Positions 2,562 through 60,805 of a DNA stretch of 64,000 nucleotides are shown here, one piece after another. The notes beneath the pieces were generated by a model. That model did not search any database. It saw only the letters and a program-made list of their open reading frames with translations, and was not told the origin of the DNA. Numbering within the stretch: position 1 is the stretch's first letter; each line of letters opens with the position of its first letter. A program made the translations under genes and the position numbers. This DNA is from Albifimbria verrucaria (lineage: Eukaryota; Ascomycota; Sordariomycetes; Hypocreales; Stachybotryaceae), in contig JAHREC010000049.1 in NCBI GenBank assembly GCA_020081605.1, forward strand, positions 3,968,001-4,032,000. The letters are read 5' to 3'.

Positions 2562-5500
2562 ATGGCCAATATGCAGCAGCACAACACTATAGAAAACCAT
2601 GGGACAGGCAATCAACTCAGCCACCATGGTACAGGAGACCAGATCAAAGTCGAGAGCCATGGCACAGTACTCACTGATCGTAGCACTAACATTACCAGTA
2701 TGACTCGCTGCTTGTCTTCCCTCCCTTTCTAACCTTTTGGATAGTTTATGGAATCCCGCTGTATATGACTGGAGGCATCGAAAGCCTGGAGCACGATCCA
2801 AGAAAGCCGTTGCGTACGCAAAGAAAAAATTAATCCGCGCACCCCACAGTTCAGTTGTTATTGATACGTACCATAGGTGATGTATTGATCGACTGGCTTC
2901 AACGACAGAAGCCGGGATCTCACTTAAGCCTTGGTCGTCGACATGCCGAGCTTATCAGGCAGCGAACCCCAGGTACTGGACAGTGGGTTCTAGAGACCGA
3001 CAGCTTTAAGGCTTGGAAAGACATCTCGACCTCTACACCGAGTTTATTGATACATGGTCCTTGTAAGTACGGGCTATTCCGCAACTCTGGCTTTACTAAC
3101 GAAGCGAAGTGGGAGCCGGCAAAACGATGCTGTCGTACGTATCTTGTCTTAAATGAACATGAAAACTTCTGGATAGCGTACTTACACAACTCAGGGCTCT
3201 TGTCATTGAGACATTGCGTGAAGAAAACAAACACAGACCTCAGATACCTTGTGTATACTTCTATTTTGATGCGGTCAATGATGACCTCACATACGCTGAT
3301 ATCTGGGCAATTCTTTTAGAGCAGCTTCTACGGCATGAAGGCTCCTCAGAAGCCGCAAAGAAACTGATCGCCAGATATGATAAGCCAAGTCAATATTCAT
3401 CTTCACTGAACCCAACAGAATGCTTCGAATTCTTCAAGGAACAAGCCGCGATCTACCAGGCAGTGTACTTGATTATTGATGGGATGGATAGCTGTCCAGG
3501 TGGCAAAGAAAACATTTTCGAGGAATTAGTGCGAGACCTAGAAGGCGTTCCTAACAATGTACGACTCCTTGTCACCTTTAGAAGCGACACTATTGCATGC
3601 AGTTTGAAGGTCTCACGAAGATTGCGCATGTCGCCGACACGGAGTGATCTAGAGCTGTATGCTCGATTTCGCATAACGAAGGACTTTAAACTTGATAAGA
3701 TTCTTATCAATGATGCGGACCGCGAGAGAGTCGTATCTAGTGTCGCCGCCGTTGCACTCGAAAGCGAGATGTTGGTGCTGAACTTGCCTCTCTATCAAGC
3801 TATCGCTTACGTGTGTCAGGTTCATTTTGGCTCGGTTACTCTTGGACAATCTATGCAAGCAGACCACGTTGGCCTATGTGAATTCATCTCTCCTTGATCT
3901 TCCAATTGATCTGTCACATGCAATTGGCTCATCCATTTCCAAAATCACCAACATTCACGAAGAGTCCGAAAGGGTTCTCGCCAAACACGTTTTTACTTGG
4001 GTAATGTACGCAGGAACTTCTTTAACTGTTGACCAAATACGAGATAGTTTTGGAGTTTCCAGGTGCCTTGGCAATAACTACGTTGAGTATAGACCTACAA
4101 AAGAGTCGATACTCACCGCATGTGCTGGGCTTGTGATAGAAGATTCTAAAACGAATACGTTACGTCTAGTCCATGAATCAGTGCGTTCGCACATACTAGA
4201 GCACAACCTGGTCATTCCTGAGCCGCATATAGCCTTAGCAGAGACTTGCTTATCGTATCTTCTGCTTGACGAATTGACTCCCGGCAGCGTCGAGACACCT
4301 ACCCTACTCCCTTATGCAGCGAGGTATTGGAGTCGGCATCTCGGACCTCGATACGAACCGGTTCATAAAGTCATCAATGAATTGATCAACAAGCTTTTTG
4401 AGGACAGCAGGAAGCTGATCAGAACCATGAGCGTCATCCCAGAAGCACGCGAATTCGTTTTTCTGGTATGGCAGCTGTTCATGCTGCCGTATATTTCAAT
4501 ATCTACACCGCTATTAAAGACACGCCAGCATCCATGCTGCGGGTCAATACGCAATGTTCTGATGGTCAATCAGCTCTTCATTGGGCTGTTCGACTTGGAC
4601 GATTCCAGATGTTGAAATTGTTAGTACGTCGACACCCAGACATTAATATGCAAGATAGGTTGGGCGAAACACCGCTTCACAAAGCTGTTCAAAAGCCAGC
4701 CAAAGATGCTGAAAAATCGTGCAATTTTTGATCGAAAGCGGCGCACGATCAAATATTCGAAGTAAATCCAAGGGCTAACAGCACTTGAGTCCACAATTAG
4801 ATACGGACCGACAGTCATTGCCAAGATATTACTTGAAAACCGGCCCGACGTCAACGAAGAGTTGACACATGGTTGGACAGCACTGAGAGAAGTTTTCCAC
4901 CACGGTCAAGATATCCATGGAAAGATAGGCCAACATGCCGATGGTCAGACAACAGTTCAAAACGCCGGCAAAGACCATGAAAGTTGCCTTATCGATGTTC
5001 TCCTTCAACATGGTGTTGATCTTAATAGTCCTACAAAGGATGGATGGCTACCCTTGATACACACAGTCTCCAAGGGAAGCCTCAGTGTGATTGAAAGGCT
5101 GCTGAAGAGATATCCACGCCCAGCAAATGTAAACATAAGGAACACAGAGGACAACAAATCACCTCTCAGATTGGCTATAACTTACGATCGATATGACGTG
5201 GCAACCTTTTTGCTTGATTATGGTGCTGAAGTCAATGAGGTTAACGAAGATGGATGGACACCACTTGCTGAAGCTGTGAAGAAACACGCAACAGATTTAG
5301 TCTGGACATTGCTGCGAAAGGGTGCAAACCCCAACACAATGGGCAATGATAACTGTCCCGCACTGTTTCACGCCGTGGAAAAGAAAAACCACGATTTGAT
5401 CTGGCTACTCATTAACAAAGGTGCAAATGTCAATATCGATGGTAATAGCCTAGTGGAATTGGCTTTGCGTAACGAGGACTATAGCACTGCTTGGTTACTT

Positions 5501-6256
5501 TGCGAGCATGGTGCCATCCCTGACACGCGGAATGCTGACGGGATGTCAACACTTTTCAAGCCTGTCTTTCTATGCAAATCGACACAGTTAGATTTCTTCT
5601 GAGTCGTGGCATACAGGTACACTACAAAGACGTCAAAGGATTCACCGCTCTACACCGCGCAGTCCTAATGGACTGTAATGAGATAGTGACACTATTGGTA
5701 TCAGGAGGAATTCGACAAGAGTTCCTTGATGAACCTGATCCCATAGGAGGATACAGCCCTAATTCTGGCAATCAAAGAAAAGAGATTAAATATCGTACAA
5801 ACTCTACTGCGCAACAGAGCTTCACACCAAGCCAAAAACTGGGAGGGCTGGACAGCTCTGCACTGTGCTGCACATGTGGGGTTCAATGATGGGTTGCGAT
5901 TGCTTCTGCGTCTAAGAAGTGACCCCAATATCACAGGCGGAAAAGGGATGTCGGCTGTTCACTGCGCTGCAAGTTCCAATCATTCCGATGCCGAGACCAT
6001 ACAGGTATTAGCTGATAACGAAGCAAACCTAGATGCTCGCGATATGTATGGGCGCACTCCTCTCATGCATGCGGTGGACAGAGACAACTTTCTTATAGCC
6101 AAGAAGTTACTATCTAGAGGGGCAGACCTAGATGCGGAAGATGATAAGCGCTGGACGGCTCATGCTCTATTAAAAGAGGAGCAGGAGGAAATGAGAAGGA
6201 TTATTGAGAAAGCACTTCGGAGGCGGGAGAAACAAAGGAGGAAAGATTCGAGGTGA
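2562..6256 (+). CDS. STAND receptor: amyloid-type motif, NACHT NTPase, ankyrin repeats
   Basis: Six exons with introns 2698-2744, 2815-2877, 3063-3109, 3135-3194 and 3771-3819. Together with six single-base homopolymer deletions (4458-4462, 4712-4716, 4772-4774, 5553-5556, 5740-5742, 5757-5759) they give 1144 aa, exactly in phase. Residues 14-27 read GTGNQLSHHGTGDQ, a duplicated GxGxQ motif like the sigma amyloid motif of fungal NLRs. A WVLETDSFKAW segment precedes Walker A (GPLGAGKT, residues 129-136, split by an intron). A Walker B-like LIIDGMD lies near 230, followed by LVTFRSD and the FILARLLLD helix typical of fungal NACHT proteins. Roughly 13 ankyrin repeats fill residues ~575-1110, and the C-terminus is basic. 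Such STAND proteins sense a ligand through the repeats, oligomerise, and template an effector amyloid through the N-terminal motif. It is convergent with a SesA gene, 32 bp away. The frameshifts look technical; a decayed allele is the alternative. Confidence 0.85.
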
Positions 6257-6288
6257 TTTAATGTTCATTATTCGGTCAAGAGAAAAGT

Positions 6289-6911
6289 CTATCGATTGGA
6301 GAAGTTGAAGGTACTGCCATGTGATGCTCCATTAACCTGTATACCGCCATTGGATGACATGTTCTGATTTCCGTTACCTGAGTGGTTCCATTGTCTTCCA
6401 GACCCTGAGTTGTGTATTATGGTATTAGATGCTTCCCAGTTGATGTCTTGCTCCCGACATTCCGTCATTATTTCCCAAATTTGTGCTCTCGTGGCCAGCT
6501 TTATTGTGTGTATTACGGTTAGGATCTGAATATCTGCCATTATACCCTCCATGATATCCTTTACTTCGTCAGATTTGGACAAAGCTTTAAGCATCATCCA
6601 GTGTTTTGTTGTCCGACTTGCTTCTGCTGGTGGAATTACCGTTTTGAAGATATCATGAAGCGTGACGATCCGAGCTTCACAAGCTTCTAAGACTGACTTC
6701 AAATTCCCATAGCTCTCATCAGCCACAACTGATCTGTCGAGGCCATCGCTTGCCAGATTTAGGCTGTCTTGAATTAGGGAAGCCGGGTTATTACGCCTCG
6801 AAAACTTGGTGGTAGACCAGTCGCATTTCCGGCGGCCTTGTAAATCTTGATGGATGCTTCGACGATAGATGCGATACTAGAGATGAGGCCAATTATTTCG
6901 AAGCCGGACAT
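6289..6911 (-). CDS. SesA-domain protein with C-terminal sigma-like amyloid motif
   Basis: The ATG is at 6911. One base is missing in the G run (plus strand) 6777-6779, which breaks the frame after codon 45; the restored protein is 207 aa. The hydrophobic helical N-terminus (GLISSIASIVEASIKIY) and the following FRGVITRLP, LEACEARI, HDIFKTVIPPAEASR and MEGIMADIQ segments match the fungal SesA N-terminal domain (Pfam Ses_A family, from knowledge). Residues ~168-184 carry NSGSGRQWNHSGNGNQN, two GxGxQ units nine residues apart, matching the receptor N-terminus and the neighbouring SesA gene. In characterised systems such proteins are cell-death effectors activated when the receptor's amyloid seed templates the motif. 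The gene is tail-to-tail with the receptor and divergent from the second SesA gene. Function is inferred from architecture and linkage. Confidence 0.85.
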
Positions 6912-7596
6912 TATCAGAGTTTGTCAAATTAACCCCTGCTGAATGGACCAGTTGGATTGAAAAGTATGGGTTGGAGCATGAAGTGAGTGAGCAGGGGGCG
7001 AGTCGAGCCTGGTGAAAAGCTGAATTTTCATGCAGAGTGACACTGCAGATGTGGCGATGCCGGCGACCAATCATTATCCAATTTAAAAGACTTGCGTACA
7101 AAACTAAGCCTGGTTAAACTGATCCAAGCTGCAGGCTGTCAGGCAGAAACGCAAGGTGAGGTAAGAGAGCATGGGGCTGGCGATTGAAGCTGATGAGGTA
7201 GTCAATGGTAGAGGTACATGACTCACCACTAGGTAAGGTTAGCTGAGATGGTATTCGGAGAAGAAGAAACGTCGTTATCAATGCTCGGTGATAGGAAAGG
7301 GACTCAATATTGCGTGCTGCTGGGTCGCGGTCGAATATTCTAAAGGTAGGGCAATTAATGAGGAGGCTTGAGCCCACGGCGTAAGCGCAAGGTTGCATCC
7401 ATGACAGGAAATTGCTAGTTCATTGGCTCACACTGTGGCCTACCTGTCCTAGGTAGCATTACTGGTTAACAGCCTCCTTCATCCCTTATAGATAGCTTGC
7501 TTGCTGCGCGCTTTCATGAATGATACCTGAATCTGTTGGTACAAATACAATCTATCATATACAACTATAACATTTGAATTGGTCAACATTACAATA
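6912..7596. promoter_or_regulatory. Bidirectional promoter region between the two SesA genes
   Basis: This 685-bp stretch separates two divergent SesA genes, so it should drive both. ORFs inside it do not look protein-like. No clear TATA box or shared operator could be identified by eye. Confidence 0.45.
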
Positions 7597-8338
7597 ATGT
7601 CTAAGCATATTATTACCAAATCAGAAGCCCTTGAGAGTATAGACTTTGCTGTGTTCGGTCTACAAAGAGCAATTAATTCGAGTGCTAAGATTGAAGAAAA
7701 GATGGCATCCACGAGGCTTTTTACGAAGTCGCCAAGTGTTTACCCACTTTACATAGTGTGTATCAGGCTATCCAAGTGAATTTGGATACTTTCGATGAGA
7801 CAGCTGCGCAAGCTCAGGACGAGTTCAAACTTGTCATTGTTGCAGGAAAGGCCTGCGAGAAAGATAGCCGATATATAAGTGCTCTCTATGAAGCCGTCCG
7901 CCAAGGGGCAGTTCCGTGCAGGAAAAATACCGCGCAGCAGTGGTTAAAGACCGTACCATTGAAAAAGTCATGGTCGACCTCCTGGAAGCTGCTATCAAAA
8001 TATGCCAAGGTTCATTGGTCAGCCCTGAACAGCATCAATCTCTCAAGGATACGCTTCAGCACATCAAAGCCGTTCCGGAGTCATTAGAGCTGAGCCCAAG
8101 GAGCTACAACAATATAGCAAACTATGGCGATGGAACTCAATGGAACCATTTGGGGACAGGACACCAAAATTATAGCACCGGTGGGGTGATGGTGACAGGA
8201 AATAATGATAATGCACAGTACAACTTCCACAGCGAACAGCCAGGAACTGCAAGACCCAGGAAAGAGAATTTGGAGGGTTTTAGATATATTCTTTTGAAAC
8301 TAAGAAGGATTCCTTTCATTTCTACCTTCCATACCTAA
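7597..8338 (+). CDS. Second SesA-like protein with sigma-like amyloid motif and basic tail
   Basis: The start is the ATG at 7597. Two bases are missing, in the A run 7697-7700 and the G run 7905-7908; with both restored the protein is 247 aa. The N-terminal region (SIDFAVFGLQRAINSSAKI, then EAFYEVAKCLPTLHSVYQAI) has the alpha-helical layout of the SesA domain, as does VMVDLLEAAIKICQG further on. The motif NYGDGTQWNHLGTGHQN at ~176-192 matches the other SesA protein and the receptor. Unlike its partner, it continues for about 30 residues past the Gly/Asn-rich stretch with a basic, aliphatic tail that might be membrane-active or might reflect an unrecognised lesion. It lies in a cluster with the receptor and the first SesA gene, so it is a likely second effector of the same signalling module. 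Confidence 0.78.
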
Positions 8339-8989: not shown

Positions 8990-9210
8990 TCCATTTTACC
9001 CATCAATTCAGCATTTTATCTTACATTGTGGATCATATTCTCTTTGAAAGACATTTTCATATCCAAATGTCTACACATTTTCTAGCGCTAACCCATGACA
9101 GGCCGACGTGGATAATGTCAGTCACCTGTTATTCTACACAGAAAATAGAACGGCGAATATTATACACACAGCTTAGGGCTCTTGTCATTGAGACATTGCA
9201 TGGGGTATAT
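8990..9210 (+). pseudogene. Decayed NACHT receptor fragment
   Basis: Bases 9175-9199 are identical over 25 nt to 3193-3217, the last intron bases and exon start just after the Walker A exon of the receptor. The flanking sequence resembles the corresponding receptor intron (a gaaaa...tacacac stretch before the AG). No open frame survives. It is most simply the remnant of a duplicated receptor gene. Confidence 0.55.
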
Positions 9211-9492: not shown

Positions 9493-9692
9493 CGAGGTGT
9501 TATTTGGCGCCAGCCGTCCAGCCCCCAACTTTTACAGGCTAATCTCACGATCTCCTTTGTCTGCACTAAAAGCTTAGAGGGACTGCATCCGTGCGCACGC
9601 TCCGCTGGTTCTACGACTATATCGATTACAACACATACGAGTCAATAAGGACGCCCCAAGTGAGGACTGGTCACTTTCACGTGTTCTCCAAT

Positions 9693-10745
9693 ATGCGGTT
9701 TCGAGGATTCACGATGGCCGCGCTCGCCTTCATCTCAAGCGCATCGCCAGCTTCATCCCAAACGACGAGCCAGTTCCAGGAGTTCTTCCCTGCCTGGAAC
9801 GAATGGCTGCTGGATATCATTGACCAGCATTGTGCCAACGAGCGCGAGATATACGAAAATTCGTCCCACCGGAACAGCCACGCATTTCGTTTCGCCAATT
9901 GTATACTCGATAATATGTTAGAGTCTTCTAAGGTTGAGATGGGCGTTGCATCTCTCCTCCTAGGTCTTCTTCCGACAATACTGCAGTCAATCGGCCCGTC
10001 GGTAGATGAGGTGAGTATTCTCGCCACGCGCCGGCCACTGCTCGCTTTTATGCTTAGCTTTGCAATGCCGTTCGTTCGCCTTAACCGTTCACCTGCCGAA
10101 TATCTCAAAACCCTGCAAACCCCACTGGAACTAGATTTCATTGGCAACAAAGCGCATAAGTGGTCATGGCTCTGGATCTTCATATCGGCAGTGGAGTATC
10201 TGTTTGCTGTAGCCGCCGCTGCTAATATCTTCTATCTCGTTTACCAGCTTGCTTTCCTGTCTGTCTCAATATCGGCCATCTCCATAAAGAACAACGTATT
10301 GCCGCAGACCTACCCGCCCTTCCTCTGGATTTTACTCCTCATCCCCGTTTACGTTCTTAGTTACCTGAGTCTTAGACTGGGGTATAAAATACAATACACG
10401 GCCATGAATAAGCAGGGTTCCGTGAGGACGACATGGCAGCAAATCATTGGTGACGAATTTATGCCCTGTGCCAAAAGCGATGGATTACACGTGGGGAAGC
10501 GGAAAGAACCAACATATATGCTTCTATCAGCTGTATTGTCCTGGTTAACCAACATGGCCATGCTTATCTTGTTTATCTTTGGTACAGTATTCTTGTCTAG
10601 CCAGATGTTTGTTAGCTTGGGCGATATGATTCCGGTCATCGCTCGTGTGATCGGCAGTTGCATGGTTGCTCGGGGTGTTATGCTGTTTGAGTTATATGGA
10701 TTAAGAAGGGGACGGCTGGAACGTGTCAACAATGCGGCAATATAG
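9693..10745 (+). CDS. Multi-pass membrane protein, unknown function
   Basis: An uninterrupted ORF of 350 aa from the ATG at 9693; the frame is open further upstream but without another ATG. The N-terminal MRFRGFTMAALAFISSASPA followed by polar sequence resembles a cleavable signal peptide. A hydrophilic lumenal or extracellular stretch with conserved-looking Cys (QHCANEREIYEN) is followed by about six hydrophobic segments, near residues 95-115, 120-140, 165-200, 220-245, 275-310 and 315-335. I do not recognise a family; it resembles lineage-restricted fungal integral membrane proteins. No frameshift is visible. It is isolated between the receptor relics and a gene-poor interval. Confidence 0.72.
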   Translation: MRFRGFTMAALAFISSASPASSQTTSQFQEFFPAWNEWLLDIIDQHCANEREIYENSSHRNSHAFRFANCILDNMLESSKVEMGVASLLLGLLPTILQSIGPSVDEVSILATRRPLLAFMLSFAMPFVRLNRSPAEYLKTLQTPLELDFIGNKAHKWSWLWIFISAVEYLFAVAAAANIFYLVYQLAFLSVSISAISIKNNVLPQTYPPFLWILLLIPVYVLSYLSLRLGYKIQYTAMNKQGSVRTTWQQIIGDEFMPCAKSDGLHVGKRKEPTYMLLSAVLSWLTNMAMLILFIFGTVFLSSQMFVSLGDMIPVIARVIGSCMVARGVMLFELYGLRRGRLERVNNAAI

Positions 10746-12548
10746 CAGTGCCGGTAACTCAGAGTGCCTACGCTCCCATCACAAAATTGGAGCAGGATGG
10801 GCATACAGCGTGGCAGTAGTTAATTATGCACTCTCTTGGAAATTCCAAGCTAGTGGGCGGATGGCCACTTAGTTGCCAACTCTGAATATCAGTTAAATTG
10901 CTTCTCATATATGTGTCAGCCTCGGACAGATGTCTTCCTCAGCAACCCACTCATCTCCAGATCGGCTCCCAGTCCTTCCACCGAAATTTGTATACTGCGC
11001 TTTCTCCCGAGCCCTTTACTTATGCGCAACGAACTGGGAATATATTGAGCAGCATTAAACTGTGCGCAAAGATGTCTCTAACATGATTCCAACACCTGGT
11101 AGGATGCGGTCTAGGCTCACCCAAGTCTCCACTGCGCCTACAGAGGTTAACTTACCTCCAGTTTAATGGCATGATCTTTTTATTCGAAAGTCTGACCATC
11201 TATATATTAACTTCAGTTCAGCGCTGGATCAGTAGCCTCACCTAGACCCATAATTTCTTGACCTTCACATGTCTTTCTGCAACCTTCTGTATTGAGACAT
11301 ACTAAATTGACCGTTAGATATTGAACCATTCCAGCGCGTGGAAATAGCAATGAAGTTATGACCACCGCGTATTTTAAAAGCTACATATCCGTGATGTACA
11401 GGAGAGCAGAGCCCAGCATCAGTAAGTTGGTTACAGAAGATAATCCCACGCTTTGTAGGTTAAGTGGCTTCTATACAATAGTGTAATGGCTCTTCCATTA
11501 TTATCATAGTGACTTTAAATATCCCTAATTAAAAGCGTAGAAAGTTGGCGCTTGATCGTACCTTGTCAGATTCGTTGGCTCCGCTGATTTGGAGTTCCTT
11601 TCTCATGTCTATCCTGGGATTATCCAACAGTACCTGGCAAGGCCCACCGAGAACAGGTAGTTACTATCAGCATCAAAGTTATTTATGAAATCAGACCTCG
11701 CTGCTTGAGCGCACCCCATTCGTCTTGCGATCCCAAGTTAATGCTATGTCATTCTACACAGAAAATAGAATGGCGGGCATTGTATTTGAGTCGTTTCATA
11801 TTGTTGTGTTCTTGATAATAACCCAAATAGTCTCAAGTTTTTGGAGCTAAGGATATGGAATTTTCCGGTCCTAAGACTATCCTCCAATTATTTAAGCGAT
11901 ACCATCCGTTAACCGCGCGCAATACATACACGGCCTACTCTATCAACGGCAACTATGCCTCCACCTCCATATGTGGCTAAGGACATCGGCGCAAGCTATA
12001 CTTTACTTTTGAGGGATTTTTTTCAGTGGTGTGCGTCGTATTGAATTGTAAGCGAGACGGAGGGTTCCCGAAGGGATAGCTTTGTCGATTGTGGTGGCAG
12101 TCAGTGCTTATTAGCTGTGTTTATGCTGGTTGAGTCTGAAGGCTTCGTCGAGTCCTAACAAGGAACTCCATTTCGCAACAACTACAGCCTATTACCGAAA
12201 AATTTTTCGATCAGCAACGTTTCGTTCTTGTCATTACATGACTGATTAATGAAGAGGGCCACTATAAGTAAATGCAGATTTTAGTAGATGTGTATGCGTC
12301 ACGCGCATGTCTTACTGTGCCTCTCATCTGCAGGTCGTTCCTAACAAGCTGACAAAAGCATTTTCACCCAGATGCTCCGTTACTATTATAGCTTAGCCGC
12401 TTGAGGTTATTGAAGACTGGTTCAGGGCACTGCTTCTGTGGGATATTTAGCATGATGGATATATGGACCATCTATTAATATACGGCGGAGATCCTTTCCT
12501 ATTCTTTTTAATTCTCAAACCGACTGCCAAGCCTCTCAACCGCTTATC
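10746..12548. other. Gene-poor interval with a short repeated fragment
   Basis: About 1.8 kb of AT-rich sequence without a convincing coding region. It contains the short repeat at 11751-11790 and, at the right, the promoter of the pectate lyase gene. Confidence 0.5.
11751..11790 (+). repeat. Dispersed copy of the receptor-relic sequence
   Basis: The first 20 bases (11751-11770) are identical to 9131-9150. In the following ~14 bases all five mismatches are transitions (C/T or A/G). This suggests two RIP-mutated copies of one duplicated sequence, the 9.1-kb copy being continuous with receptor-derived sequence. Confidence 0.5.
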
Positions 12549-22678: not shown

Positions 22679-24798
22679 ATGACCTTCCTCCGACGTGCCG
22701 CTCCAGCAACCGCGCCCAGCCTGTCACGCTGCCTCGGCTCGGGGCGCGGGCGCGGGCGCCTCTCCGGGCCAGCGTCGGTATTCGCCGGCAAGCGGCACAT
22801 CCACAGGGTTGCTGTCTTACCTGCGCTGCAGCACCAGGTGGATAGGAAGCCCACTGCAGTTTCTGGAGTCAATGGAAATGCGAAATCTACGAGATATTAT
22901 TCTTCCGCGTCGGCGGTGCAGGAACATGGCATGTATACAGCTTCATTTGCGTTTTTCGAGGCCTTATGGGAGGCTGGTGTTACGCATTGCTTCGTGAACT
23001 TGGGAAGCGATCATCCTAGCATCATTGAAGCCATGGTCAAGGGTCAGAAGGATGCCCAGGGAAATTCCCTCGTATCATTACGTGCCCAAATGAGGTGAGA
23101 TTTCAGCTACTTCCACTTGTAGATCGTGTGGCTTACGGATCCATCTAGATGGTTGCCATGTCGATGGCGGATGGCTACGCTCGATTGACTGGCAAACCAC
23201 AATGCGTGATTGTCCATGTCGACGTTGGCACCCAAGGTCTTGGCGCCGCAGTGCATAATGCATCTACAGGCCGCGCGCCAGTCTTCATCTTCGCTGGTCT
23301 GTCACCCTTTACCCAGGATGGTGAGTTACGTGGCAGTCGCACAGAGTACATCCACTGGATCCAGGACGTACCAGACCAGAAACAGATTGTTGCCCAGTAC
23401 TGCCGCTACACCGGGGAGGTCAAGACGGGTACTAATGTAAAGCAAATGGTCAACCGGGCCTTGCAATTCGCAAAGTCAGATCCGCAGGGTCCAGTGTACC
23501 TATACGGTGCACGTGAGGTTATGGAAGCGGATATTAAGCCGTATAAGCTGAAGCAGGAAGATTGGGAACCAGTTGAGCTAGGAGGGCTTCCCAAAAAGCT
23601 GTCAACAAGATCACCGATGCATTGGCTGGGGCCAAGGAGCCGTTAATTATTACCGGTTACGGCGGGCGCAACCACAAGCTGCCGGCAGCGTTGGTGGAAC
23701 TCGCGGATACAGTCAAGGGTTTGCGTGTTCTGGACACGGGCGGAAGCGACATGTGCTTTCCTTCGGACCACCCAGGATGGTTAGGCCTGCGGTACGGCGC
23801 GGACGATTCGATTACCACAGCCGACGTGATCGTCGTGCTAGATTGCGACGTCCCATGGATTCCGACGCGATGCAAGCCTCGAGATGACGCCAAGATCTTC
23901 CACATCGACGTAGACCCCTTGAAGCAGCAGATGCCTGTCTTCTATATCCAGTCGCAGCACCGATACCGTGCACACGCGCTAACGTCCATTGAGCAAATCA
24001 CTGAGAGCCTCAAGACTGGTGATGCCGCGACCAAGCTGCAAGCACGAAACTCGGAGCAGGCCACTAGGAAGCTCATGGAGGAGCACAAGACACGTCTCGA
24101 CGCCATCGCCAAAGCTGCAGAGCCCCTTGAAGATGGGTCTTTCGGAACAGGCCACCTGTGCCAGACCCTGCGCAAGCTGTGTCCCGAGGACACGTTGTTT
24201 GCGGTCGAGGCTGTGACCACCACGGGTTTCGTACACGACAACCTGCAGCCTAAGCTGCCAGGATCGTGGATCAACTGCGGCGGCGGAGGCCTCGGTTGGT
24301 CAGGTGGTGCGGCGCTGGGCATAAAGCTGGCTAGTCAAGCAGAGCACGGCGGCAAGGGCAAGTTTGTAGTACAAATCGTGGGAGACGGATCGTATCTGTT
24401 CTCAGTGCCTGGAAGCGTGTACTGGATTTCAAAAAGATACGACATTCCTGTGCTGACGATTGTGTTGAACAACAAGGGTGAGTCCATGGTGTGTTCAAGG
24501 GAGACATTGGAAGAAATGGCTAACAGGAGCGAATGCAGGATGGAACGCACCCCGCAGATCGCTTCTGCTGGTGCACCCTGACGGCCTCGGCTCCAAGGCA
24601 AGCAACGACGAGATTAACATCGCCTTCAACCCATCGCCAGATTACGCGGGCATTGCCAAGGCAGCGGCCGCAGGGGACATATTCGCGGCACGCGTGGACC
24701 AGACGGCAGACCTGGAGCGAGTGCTCAAGGAGGCCATCGGGGCAGTGCAATCAGGCCAGACAGCAGTCGTGGACTGCAAGGTTGCTCCGAATTGCTGA
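22679..24798 (+). CDS. TPP-dependent enzyme, acetolactate-synthase-like
   Basis: Three exons (introns 23095-23148 and 24478-24538) with two missing bases (C run 23067-23069, A run 23593-23597) give 668 aa in frame. The N-terminal ~60 residues are rich in Arg, Ala and Ser without acids, as in a mitochondrial presequence. The TPP enzyme core is clear: MYTASFAFFEALWEAGV, then PNEMVAMSMADGYARLTGK with the catalytic-type Glu (split by the first intron), HVDVGTQGLG, a middle domain with LIITGYGGRN and LDTGGSDMCFP, and a C-terminal GDGSYLFSVPGSVYW ... LNNKG(W)N cofactor-binding motif. These enzymes decarboxylate or ligate 2-keto acids; whether this one makes acetolactate or acts on another keto acid cannot be told. 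It is probably a paralogue rather than the main Ilv2, whose motifs differ (family knowledge). Confidence 0.85.
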
Positions 24799-33104: not shown

Positions 33105-33759
33105 GGGCATCAACGTTGAGTAATCATGAGAGAGGGAGGAGGTAATGCGTGGCAAGACGAGGTGGAAACGGTTCAATTCGGGTGTGAGACGGATTTAGAA
33201 GAGTCGTTTTATAGAGAATATGATCGTTTATGGTAAATCGTTTGTTTTCTCGCACAAAATTGATTGTCCATCTCCATACTACGAGGTGATGCAACCCCTA
33301 ATGTCGTCTATGCGATATGCTATAAGTGATCATCCTTAGCCCTAACGGATTGCGCCCTTGATAGACACCCTCTTTCTTCCGCCAGGCTAAGTCAGTATCT
33401 AGTTAGACTCATGACAAACATAGTTTAAAGCTGTAAGACCAAGGGCGCGCCCCACACAGATCAACCGGAAGTATGGATGGGAGACTCCACAAGGGTCCAT
33501 CACAAGTAAGAACACCAATCCAAAACTGGAAATACAAGACGTCTAGTTATCGTCAGTGTCCACTGATGAGCAGGCCCAGGGCGGCTTGAATTGAACGAGG
33601 CAATTGCCGAAACTATTCCAGTAACATGATGTAAATGTGTTTAAAGAGGCGAACTCCTCAACTATTTGAGAAGCAATCATACAAACCAATTTGTCAATTG
33701 CACAAAGCACACCTAGACAACCAACTGGGAACCTTGGCACAACCTCACAATACTTCAGC
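33105..33759. other. Intergenic interval
   Basis: About 650 bp between the germin-like gene and the decarboxylase. No gene seen; it should contain the decarboxylase promoter. Confidence 0.4.
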
Positions 33760-35211
33760 ATGGGTTCACTAAACTTGCCGACGCAAGCTCTTTCAAAAGA
33801 TCTTGAAACAGTCGTCAACTCCATTCAGAATGTTGCGCAACGCCTCGTTGCCACAACGCAAGACGTTGCTAACGACCCTATCATCCATATTGCCAAGCCA
33901 ACAGATGTTCCTCTATTAAGAACTATCGGCACCCCTGGAGACGCACACGATGTTGAACAAGTTATTGAAGAAGCTTTCACTGCATTCGACTTTCGCATGA
34001 GAGTAAACCACCCGCGCTTTATGGGACTGATTCCGTCTCCGACGTCCCCGATCGCGTGGCTGGGAGACTGTATCGCCACGGCTTTCAATGCACTCGGCGC
34101 ATCAAAACTCCAGGCCTCAGGCCCTGTTGTTATTGAAAAGACGCTAATTGAATGGCTTGCATCCCGAGTTGGGTTCCCGGATAGTGCAGGAGGAATCTGT
34201 GTTTCCGGCGGATCCATGGCCAATCTCATGGGCATCGTCCTTGCCCGTGACAGATATGTGCCCCATGGAATGGAGACCAAGGCTGTTGCGTACTTTTCCG
34301 ACCAAACACACTATTCCGTGGCAAAAGCTTTGAAACTGCTAGGATTCAGCAAACATCAAATTCGACATTTGCCAGCTGATGACGCATTCCGGATGAGCCC
34401 AGAAACCTTGGAGGACGCTATCAAATCTGATCGGGACGCTGGCTTAGTGCCATTTCTCGTTGTCGGCACATGTGGAACAACAAATGTTGGTGCTGTTGAT
34501 CCATTAGCCCGAATTTCCGACGTTTGCAAGAGGCAAGGACTTTGGCTGCACGTCGACGGAGCATACGGAGCATCAGCCGTCCTGTCTGCAACGAGATCTG
34601 GGGAAGTCAGTGAGCTCAAGCATGCTGACAGTTTATCCTGGGACGCACACAAGTGGCTATTTCAGACATACAGCTGCGGGCTACTATTAGTAAAAGACAA
34701 GAGCAATCTCGTGAGAAGTTTCGCCAATGAGGGTGACTATCTCCGTGACGGCGTGGCCATTGAGGACGAGGACATCCCTAACTTCTGGAACTATTCTATG
34801 GAACTCACTCGTCCTGCATCACGTGCAATGAAGCTGTGGTTCACATTACGTGTACTTGGCGTCGAACGGGTTGGGGAGATGCTTGACCATGGTTTCAAAC
34901 TTGCAGAGAGGGCCCAAGAGGAGTTACGCAAACTCCCGGACTGGGAGATCACAAGCTCTGCCAATCTAGGTGTCATAACATTCCGCTACGTGGTGAAGGA
35001 TAAGTCCGCAGAAGAGTTGGACGAGCTGAACACAGAAATCTCAAGAAAACTTGTATCAAGTAATACGGCTGGAATACTTACAACCAAAGTTCGTGGTAAA
35101 GTCGCGCTGAGGATTTGTGCGTTGAGTCCACATCTAAGCCTCGATGAGATGTCGGATATTATACAAACAGCCGATAAATTTGCAAAAGGATCGAAGAACA
35201 CCAGTGGCTAA
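33760..35211 (+). CDS. Group II PLP-dependent amino-acid decarboxylase
   Basis: The ATG at 33760 opens an intronless, intact frame of 483 aa. Signature segments appear in order: HPRFMGLIPSPTSP near the N-terminus, ICVSGGSMANLMGIVLARD, THYSVAKALKLLGF, VGTCGTTNVGAVDPLA, LWLHVDGAYGASAVLS and SLSWDAHKWLFQTYSCGLLL. The Lys in DAHKW forms the PLP Schiff base and the Asp in HVDGAYGA contacts the cofactor. It belongs to the aromatic-L-amino-acid/glutamate/DABA decarboxylase superfamily; the substrate cannot be assigned. A compact, intron-free gene in a gene-poor neighbourhood is compatible with a secondary-metabolism role or horizontal acquisition, but there is no direct evidence for either. Confidence 0.9.
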   Translation: MGSLNLPTQALSKDLETVVNSIQNVAQRLVATTQDVANDPIIHIAKPTDVPLLRTIGTPGDAHDVEQVIEEAFTAFDFRMRVNHPRFMGLIPSPTSPIAWLGDCIATAFNALGASKLQASGPVVIEKTLIEWLASRVGFPDSAGGICVSGGSMANLMGIVLARDRYVPHGMETKAVAYFSDQTHYSVAKALKLLGFSKHQIRHLPADDAFRMSPETLEDAIKSDRDAGLVPFLVVGTCGTTNVGAVDPLARISDVCKRQGLWLHVDGAYGASAVLSATRSGEVSELKHADSLSWDAHKWLFQTYSCGLLLVKDKSNLVRSFANEGDYLRDGVAIEDEDIPNFWNYSMELTRPASRAMKLWFTLRVLGVERVGEMLDHGFKLAERAQEELRKLPDWEITSSANLGVITFRYVVKDKSAEELDELNTEISRKLVSSNTAGILTTKVRGKVALRICALSPHLSLDEMSDIIQTADKFAKGSKNTSG

Positions 35212-58246: not shown

Positions 58247-60805
58247 CTAGAACCCGTTCTCAAAGTGCCCTTCCGCAGGCATCGCCAGGTTCGCACACTT
58301 CACCACCTCACCTCCCGCATTTATCCACCCACCTGCATCCACGCCCTGCAGATGCACGCTGTTCCCCACCAGTGGAGCCGCACATCCAAGCGCTGCAGGC
58401 CAAAGAACATGATCAGCCCTGATATCCCAACTCCCGCTATGAATGAGCTGCTCATGACGTACGCGTAGCGCTCCCACCACGCCCCCAGCGGCGTCGCACC
58501 AGTCCATTGAAGAAGAGTGCCAGCGCGAGCGTTCCCTGGATGTAGCTCCAGTTGTACGGCGCCCAGCCGAGCGGCCCAGCAAGGAATATCGGAATGTTGA
58601 CATTACGCCATGCTGAGCCTGGCCAGCGCTTCATGGCGAAGTAAGCAAGCACGGGCAGAACCACGCCGAGAGGAATGGCCCATGTCACGGTGTTGTACGG
58701 TGCGCCGAAGCTAAACAAGCGTCGAGGACCGATGACGCCCCATAGTACCGAGGACAAGAAATATGAATGCGTATGCGGACACTTGAACCGGTCCACCTGT
58801 CCCGGCGTACACAAGTCCTCTACATTCTCCATAACCCAGTGGTTAACGCCCAGCGCGACAAACGCAGCAAGAACCGTTGCATAGATCTGGGCAATAAACG
58901 CCGTCCGAGGAGGAATCTTTGCGTAGTGCGCCATCTTGAGATCCGCCACGAAGTTGAGCGATTGTGATGTCGCCATGTAGCTATACATCTTGAACATCAT
59001 GTTTGGCACGACGCGGCCCTCGAGGGCATATCCGCCGACGACCTGGGCGAGGATACTCGTTGAAACCTCCATATTAGTGACGGCAGCGAGGATGCCGACC
59101 GGAATCTGCAGCACTGTAGTGAAAATCACGGCGAGGAAGATGGTCCAAATGGGCATGCCGGTGGGCCAAGCGGCAGCTGAAGCGCACGCAAGAGAAATCG
59201 ACACGACAAGAATGACTAGGTACCACCAGCGTGGACATTCCTCATATGAGCTCATGAGGCGGTTATGAACGTCCTTGAAGTCGTCGGTCCGCTTCGTTCT
59301 CTTCCAGATAGAGCTCACGCCAGCGACAATATCCTTACGGTACCAAAGGGCAATATGCGCCGGTATGGAGGCATACAAGGCAAAGAAGCCTACATAATTG
59401 AGAATCTGCGTGATTGACATCCAAGGGATACTGTACTCATGGTAAGCAGTCGAGTTCATCGTCATGTCGTCGTTGAGAATGCGGCGGACGTCGTAGATAT
59501 TGCCAGTGTTATCGTACACTCTGTTTGTGTTGATGGGCAAGTACCCGCTGTTCCAGACATTACGAAAGTAAAGAATCGGCGCAAAAACGAAACCCATCAT
59601 TGCCATACCCGTTGCAAAGTTCAGCAAAGTAAACAACGGCGTGACGATCGGATCACCGAGAAAGGTCGCAATGTTCCAGTCCAGGGTGGGCAGCGGGTTC
59701 AGCCCCAGACCGCAAGTGCTGCCCATGATGATGGCAAGCGTTACATTGCCCGGAGAGATCCAAGTAGGCCAGTTGAACAAAGCGACGGCCTCGAACAAGT
59801 AATTGGGCACCCAGTACCAGACAAACATGGCGAAGAAACAGATGAGGAAGAACCGGTACCGCGACGTAGTCCAGCCGTTGGCGGAGGGGATATCCTCACT
59901 CTTGTTGTCTTTGACGAGAGCTCTGGTCAGAGCAATTGTTGCGAGAGGTTTCCGCCAGATCATGGCAGCCGGATAGACGAGAAACCGACGGGCCATGCCA
60001 GCACAGCCATAGCCGAGTAATTGCGTTGCTAGGAGTGTTGTAATCTGCCACGGGATGCTGTTTGAGAGCACCTTTTCGCCATAAAAGACATCAAGCTTGA
60101 GCACCTGGATCATGCTGACAACGTAGGCACCAGTCGAATGACCCCAAAGGCGACATTGGCCATCATGGCAATCAGAATATGCTCTTTCTGATTGAAAGCA
60201 CCGGGATTCAGTGTAAAGCTCCACCACCCGCTACCAAACGTTCGCGTAGGGAGCCACTTTGCCAGCAACAGCCCAAGCGGCATGCTCAGCAGCTGGACGA
60301 CATAGGTGGATATGCTGATACTGGGTAAGCGCAGCGAGAAGAATTGCTGTATCGCGGTGCCGGCCAGAGTGAACACGGTGCCCAAGAGAAGCACACGAAA
60401 TGTTCCAACAGGCAACGTCGGGTCATCAGTAGGATCGACGACAGCACGAACTTCAGGATAGGCCGAGTTGTTGAGGACAAGTTCCTCATACTCAGCAAAG
60501 TCATTGACCAGAGACTGGGCACGCTCGGCATCTGGAGCAATTTTTTCATCGTTGCCATAGTCGGCGAGAAACTCCCGCGCACGTTTCAGTATGTCTTGCG
60601 GGAAGTTCTGATCGAGTTCACGCTCGCGAATGAGACATTCGAGCGCCTCGACGAAGGTCTCCTTGGGCTCGTTGCCCGAGGAAGAAGACGGACGCTCCAC
60701 CATTTGCGTCTCCCTTGGGGCTGGAAGTGGCAGCGCGGACGAAAGGAAGGAGGCTGTTCGGACGAGGCAAGCTATGGGGTGTATCACATTTGACGATGGA
60801 GGCAT
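58247..60805 (-). CDS. OPT-family oligopeptide transporter
   Basis: A single frame from the ATG at 60805 to a stop at 58247 is restored by three single-base additions at plus-strand C runs 60142-60145, 58482-58486 and 58375-58378, giving 853 aa, normal for the family. MVERPSSSS (60700) is an alternative start. About 12-16 membrane segments are visible. Typical OPT sequences include DDPTLPVGTFRVLLLGTVF, NPGAFNQKEHILIAMMANVA, SIPWQITTLLATQLLGYGCA, VPNYLFEAVALFNWPTWISP, LPTLDWNIATFLGDP, EVSTSILAQVVGGYALEGR and APYNTVTWAIPLGVVLPV. It imports small peptides with protons at the plasma membrane. The gene is conserved and otherwise complete, so the lesions are probably technical. Confidence 0.9.

Follow-up and report, generated by a model that had tools for sequence, protein, structure and literature searches.

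Does a group of three neighbouring genes in the filamentous ascomycete Albifimbria verrucaria, lying at positions 2562 to 8338 of the 64,000-nucleotide stretch analysed here (the window), form an amyloid-signalling cluster in which one NOD-like receptor (NLR) could address two effectors through a shared motif? The encoded domains, a common sigma-type motif and the adjacency of the genes lead us to read the locus as a sigma-type cluster of one HET-eN-like receptor and two SesA effectors, a reading to which we assign a probability of about 0.82. The receptor gene (2562..6256, plus strand) encodes a sigma motif, a NACHT domain of the NPHP3_N type, a winged helix and ankyrin repeats. Convergent with it lies the gene for effector 1 (6289..6911, minus strand), a SesA protein with a hydrophobic first helix and a C-terminal sigma-type motif. 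The gene for effector 2 (7597..8335, plus strand), a divergent SesA protein that also carries a C-terminal sigma-type motif, is directed away from the receptor gene.

The domains of the receptor were recognised by Pfam profiles on separate frame pieces. NPHP3_N was matched in pieces over 2834..3897 (expectation value (E) 8.7e-4, below the cut-off, and E 9.3e-12), with the P-loop region lying between introns; it is followed by the winged helix GPIID_WHD (3965..4210; 29.1 bits with a cut-off of 27, E 1.3e-6) and by ankyrin repeats spread over several frames (4462..6253; E down to 7.1e-38), for which an unbroken relative exists in P0003 (794 residues, 98% identical). Among the best 120 of 526 receptor homologues, the final third of which are bacterial and other ankyrin proteins, are ankyrin NLRs of Fusarium, Trichoderma and Hypoxylon (P0004, P0009, P0011 and P0040) that share 38-43% identity with the receptor over the winged-helix/ankyrin part; its best named relatives are the proteins of Fusarium albosuccineum (P0004, 42%), Trichoderma ghanense (P0009, 43%) and Hypoxylon sp. 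(P0040, 38%). As in our receptor, an N-terminal sigma-type motif is present in these NLRs, with three units in P0004 and P0011 and two in P0009, but the four proteins carry another variant of the motif.

The longest frame piece of effector 1 matched Pfam SesA (PF17107) with 52.9 bits (cut-off 26.3), and its unbroken relative P0001 (207 residues) reached 93.3 bits. None of the three window pieces of effector 2 gave a Pfam match above cut-off, the best SesA score being 15.5 bits, and effector 2 was not listed in the SesA scan of the whole assembly (48.4 Mb in 41 contigs). We nevertheless call effector 2 a SesA protein because its unbroken, 98% identical relative P0002 scores 34.2 bits and thus passes the same cut-off. 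SesA and HeLo-like annotations overlap strongly, as described in PMC4986451. An AlphaFold model of P0001, built on a two-sequence alignment, was mostly helical with a mean predicted local distance difference test score of 41, too low to use. No SesB lipase was recognised in the locus pieces and the two flanking frames scanned.

The receptor motif resides in a short first exon, which starts at 2562 and encodes NTIENHGTGNQLSHHGTGDQIKVESHGT (MANMQQHNTIENHGTGNQLSHHGTGDQIKVESHGTVLTDRSTNIT); the motif itself occupies 2583..2690, where two GxGxQ repeats are clear and a third is degenerate. Introns lie in the 5' half of the gene. The motif exon is linked to the receptor body by a probable 47-base intron, GT...CTAAC...TAG, placed by eye at 2698..2744 on the plus strand. 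We infer an intron here from the fungal-type signals and from the residues that follow it, YGIPLYM, which resemble GIPSVWNL at the equivalent place in homologues. An in-frame stop is found at 2831, just before the NACHT domain, and the gene model is provisional at this point.

The GxGxQ repeat is common to all three genes, N-terminal in the receptor and C-terminal in both SesA proteins. In effector 1 it reads GSGRQ, GNGNQ and GGIQ (6292..6429, minus strand), and the C-terminus consists of IIHNSGSGRQWNHSGNGNQNMSSNGGIQVNG and a short tail; in effector 2 it reads GDGTQ, GTGHQ and a degenerate third unit (8102..8242, plus strand), with IANYGDGTQWNHLGTGHQNYSTGGVMVTG near the C-terminal end. Compared with the three A/B units of the sigma motif, each protein has two clear, A-like units and a degenerate third, and the repeat fits a threefold description with a degenerate last unit better than the duplicated one given in the earlier note. 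The three motifs served as queries against a set of 4,846 six-frame pieces, each 20 residues or longer, from the window and other genome loci; some of these loci overlap, and a few pieces are present in duplicate. Apart from itself, the receptor motif matched effector 2 best (16.1 bits, E 0.0028), followed by effector 1 (11.7 bits, E 0.077). For the effector 1 motif the order of matches was effector 2 (E 5.2e-6), a sigma motif elsewhere in the genome, on contig C15 (E 0.012), and the receptor (E 0.055), and the effector 2 motif found effector 1 (E 1.1e-5) and the receptor (E 0.01, 14.9 bits). The best matches in five shuffled sets were E 0.8 (10.7 bits) for the receptor query, E 1.9 (10.1 bits) for effector 1 and E 0.11 (13.9 bits) for effector 2. 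Hence the match between the two effector motifs is strong, and each match between receptor and effector is modest when taken singly. With E up to 10, a search of the genome gave for either effector motif no match beyond the motif itself and its counterpart in the other effector (E 2.7e-4 and 2.4e-4); this search was coarse, as the C15 motif seen among the frame pieces was not listed.

Could the shared repeat be merely a low-complexity tail rich in Gly, Asn and Gln, arisen or spread by chance or local gene conversion and carrying no signal? These three residues account for 37-38% of the 60 C-terminal residues in P0001 and P0002, the motif stays under the Pfam cut-offs, and the receptor-effector scores are only slightly above those of the best shuffled frames. 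However, when one motif was permuted against the other, the observed score was reached in 0 of 5000 permutations for effector 1 with effector 2, in 0 of 5000 for the receptor with effector 2 and in 1 of 5000 for the receptor with effector 1, which places the sharing above chance and shows that order and spacing are kept, not composition alone. Moreover, the same register is kept in homologous receptors of other genera, and the motif stands at opposite ends of the receptor and the effectors, a placement not expected from simple duplication. We thus regard a signal-free tail as very improbable. The earlier description of a NACHT-ankyrin receptor adjoining two SesA-like genes that share a GxGxQ motif with it was borne out by the Pfam domains and by the permutations.

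Is this motif sigma? We built a profile from 25 receptor N-termini with the repeat in register (e.g. NHASGCQYLGPGDGDQNVVSSNGVQFND), picked by eye from 119 (P0003 excluded); P0009, P0018, P0058, P0065 and P0075 are among those that show the motif partly or fully and were left out of the profile, and the remaining N-termini among the 119, many of them incomplete, are without a visible motif. Against the 4,846 frame pieces, the profile matched the receptor exon with E 2e-5 (27 columns, no gap) and the effector 1 C-terminus with E 0.001. It also matched C15 motifs with E 9.7e-7 and 0.0086, and its best match in a five-fold shuffled set was E 1.3.

Several results weigh against the assignment. With the same profile the effector 2 motif reached only E 1.8, which is not significant, and it is assigned solely through its matches to the effector 1 and receptor motifs. 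Pfam NACHT_sigma scored 15.9 bits on the receptor, under its cut-off of 27.6, and the locus was absent from the genome-wide results of both NACHT_sigma and Ses_B. The receptor query scored effector 1 at 11.7 bits compared with 10.7 for the top shuffled frame, and the effector 2 query scored the receptor at 14.9 bits compared with 13.9. Furthermore, the effector 1 motif lies closer to the C15 motif than to that of its own receptor, and the receptor motif listed only itself, and neither effector, in the genome search. The earlier note had named a failure to match sigma or Ses_B profiles as a ground for rejecting its reading: the Pfam profiles indeed fail, and the profile from homologous receptors succeeds for two of the three proteins. 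Of the Pfam families that it proposed for comparison, NACHT and ankyrin were found at the locus, SesA was found in effector 1 and, only by way of P0002, in effector 2, and Ses_B, like NACHT_sigma, was not. We conclude that the Pfam sigma profiles by themselves are too insensitive for the variant present here, and that the locus is, on its sequence, a divergent sigma variant of the HET-eN/SESA type of module; we call it divergent because the curated Pfam models stay below cut-off while the profile from homologous receptors recognises the motifs of the receptor and effector 1. The identification of a sigma-type NLR/SesA amyloid-signalling module made in the earlier note is thereby supported at the level of sequence.

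The gene content is that of a known kind of cluster, described since 2012. As the paper that defined sigma in that year reports, the receptor at the founding locus, HET-eN, is itself a NACHT and ankyrin protein, certain loci carry two neighbouring sesA copies, and SesB is not present at every locus (PMC3321046). These loci contradict the proposal that the pairing of one ankyrin receptor with two SesA proteins is unusual. Our locus resembles HET-eN/SESA/SESB of Nectria haematococca in its NACHT-ankyrin receptor with N-terminal sigma, the gene for which has an intron in its 5' region, in a SesA protein with the same motif at its C-terminus and in the clustering of the genes (descriptions in PMC3321046 and PMC5485727). 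It differs from the Nectria haematococca locus in having two SesA genes, no SesB recognised in the pieces scanned and a degenerate third repeat. With the two-sesA loci beside a STAND (signal-transducing ATPase with numerous domains) gene in PMC3321046, compared by description only, it apparently shares its whole content of one receptor and two SesA proteins. According to a later review, HET-S/NWD2 and PNT1/HELLP/SBP follow the same logic of a motif at the N-terminus of the receptor and at the C-terminus of the effector, and PNT1 with its PP motif serves two effectors, as sigma does, but both systems use other motifs (HET-s/HRAM and PP) and other receptor architectures (PMC5485727). Three things are particular to the locus described here: its own version of the motif, two SesA bodies that contrast with each other, and no recognised SesB partner among the pieces scanned.

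By analogy with HET-S/NWD2 and HELLP/PNT1, the ankyrin repeats of the receptor would bind a ligand, upon which the NACHT domain would oligomerise and cluster the receptor motifs. The clustered motifs may then adopt a beta-arch amyloid fold on which the C-termini of both effectors are templated. Such templating would free the predicted HeLo-like, MLKL-related helical bundles of SesA to damage the membrane of the fungus itself, and the predicted outcome would be cell death in allorecognition or defence.

Do the two effectors do the same job? Compared through their relatives P0001 and P0002, they are 17% identical in the body outside the motif (26/151) and 45% identical in the motif (20/44). The higher identity in the motif than in the body fits a published remark that extensions are more alike within a cluster than between orthologues (PMC3321046). 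The N-terminus of P0001 holds a hydrophobic segment with a mean hydropathy of 2.0 over 13 residues, whereas the first 45 residues of P0002 reach only 1.07 and are without the hydrophobic first helix of P0001. The N-terminal helix of HET-S is important for membrane targeting, as stated in PMC12881547. One may imagine, from the precedent of HET-s beside HET-S, that killing falls to effector 1, with effector 2 acting as a non-lytic relay, a decoy or a brake on a shared amyloid channel. The hydropathy values favour such a division, as does the SesA match of P0002, which is weaker and begins later in the profile than that of P0001. However, the contrast is based on two proteins, and P0002 is more hydrophobic further in (1.7 near residue 125), so we consider different jobs possible but unlikely. 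The fuller version, in which the sigma receptor drives two unequal SesA proteins, a membrane killer and a divergent one tuning, amplifying or braking it, as a HET-S/HET-s-like pair on a sigma motif, is more doubtful still. The two SesA proteins, nearly alike in the layout of the motif and very different in their bodies, would offer a clean test of whether effectors of different output can be steered by one receptor.

Are these genes intact? All three are frame-broken in the assembly and none reads through. Using P0001, P0002 and P0003 as unbroken, 98% identical references, with the receptor covered in its last exon only, we counted eight breaks: one in effector 1, two in effector 2, the stop of which differs from that of P0002, and five in the 3' exon of the receptor. 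Of the 1,221 codons aligned in this comparison, 1,210 encode the same residue and 11 show an amino-acid substitution. The eight breaks, of which the earlier note made no mention, qualify its description of a complete module, which holds for the gene content and fails for the frames.

A decaying pseudogene cluster, its frames truly lost in this strain and kept in a close relative, would explain several of these features. Eight breaks in three neighbouring genes are denser than those in the housekeeping genes examined (8 in about 3.7 kb here compared with 3 in about 5.9 kb of PRP8, 1 in about 2.3 kb of acetyl-CoA carboxylase and none inside the domain at two of three Rpb2-type loci), a density that also speaks against an assembly origin; neither of the long frames on the two sides of the cluster (368-1981 and 9570-10742) is broken; and a 37-nucleotide receptor copy at 9166-9202 may be read as a sign of past duplication and loss. 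Given the higher break density and the unbroken flanking frames, some of the genes may really have decayed. Yet the breaks are rich in indels for ordinary decay, with eight of them beside 11 amino-acid substitutions over 1,221 codons (only amino-acid changes being counted). All eight breaks are net losses of bases, seven of a single base and the eighth a codon gap plus one base (net two), and five of the eight lie no more than nine bases from a base run of length four or greater, compared with 17% of random places. Net base losses are an error type of long-read assemblies. In addition, essential genes are split in the same assembly: PRP8 (C41:1395500-1405000, locus L018) is spread over four overlapping frames, all of which carry PRP8 domains, and acetyl-CoA carboxylase (C36:4084397-4086651) over two. 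Since these frames overlap, the splits are not introns; they show that the assembly contains indel errors. Of three loci with the Rpb2-type domain, two have it unbroken, and at the third it falls into two pieces 42 bases apart. The splitting of PRP8 and acetyl-CoA carboxylase makes assembly error likelier than decay, and we hold the breaks to be, with high probability, mainly assembly errors and the decay of the whole cluster to be improbable; accordingly, the cluster is probably intact in the living fungus. The longest contig given in the records of P0001 and P0003 has the same length, 120,011 bases, an indication that a close relative has receptor and effector 1 linked and intact; for the P0002 record the longest contig is 31,955 bases. 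As genes of this assembly fall into overlapping frames, automatic annotation may mis-split such genes.

The 37-nucleotide copy at 9166-9202 is 92% identical to the receptor part 3184-3220, lies about 6 kb downstream of it and is possibly the relic of a duplicated receptor gene. Beside it, a 38-nucleotide repeat (9127-9164) recurs at 11747-11784 with 84% identity. A PRP8 frame (L018:300-3182, minus strand) shows a match to an intein-type Hint domain (Hom_end_hint, E 2.4e-9) before its best U6-snRNA-binding stretch, and this domain is probably a PRP8 intein.

Other loci with motifs of this type occur in the genome. At C15:6613500-6622500 (6.62 Mb), a PNP_UDP frame lies beside an NPHP3_N/ankyrin receptor and both contain GPQNVAAGSG; the sigma motif apparently stands upstream, on the N-terminal side, of the PNP_UDP phosphorylase frame, an odd end for an effector, and this gene model is provisional. 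At C36:2966984-2970241 (2.97 Mb), a gene for a SesA protein that ends in a sigma-type tail adjoins a divergently oriented NACHT receptor gene (NPHP3_N, E 2.1e-34) with GEGSQ and GSGAQ units at its start, and both genes are apparently frame-broken. At C6:2852500-2861500 (2.86 Mb), a PNP_UDP protein that carries a Ses_B-like motif at its C-terminus is found near an NB-ARC frame (E 2.8e-8); the Ses_B-like tail scored 19.1 bits by hmmscan (cut-off 23.2) and 23.5 bits together with its neighbours in the genome scan. At least one further sigma locus of the genome, that on C15, has a motif version of its own, and this bears on how parallel amyloid channels avoid cross-talk, and the resemblance of effector 1 to the C15 motif makes the question concrete.

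Scans of the window for transfer RNA genes and Rfam families gave no match. Elsewhere in the window, frames for a thiamine pyrophosphate enzyme (23577-24578), a pyridoxal-dependent decarboxylase (33670-35208), a cytochrome P450 (41885-43294) and an OPT transporter (58455-60230) possibly mark a specialised-metabolism neighbourhood.

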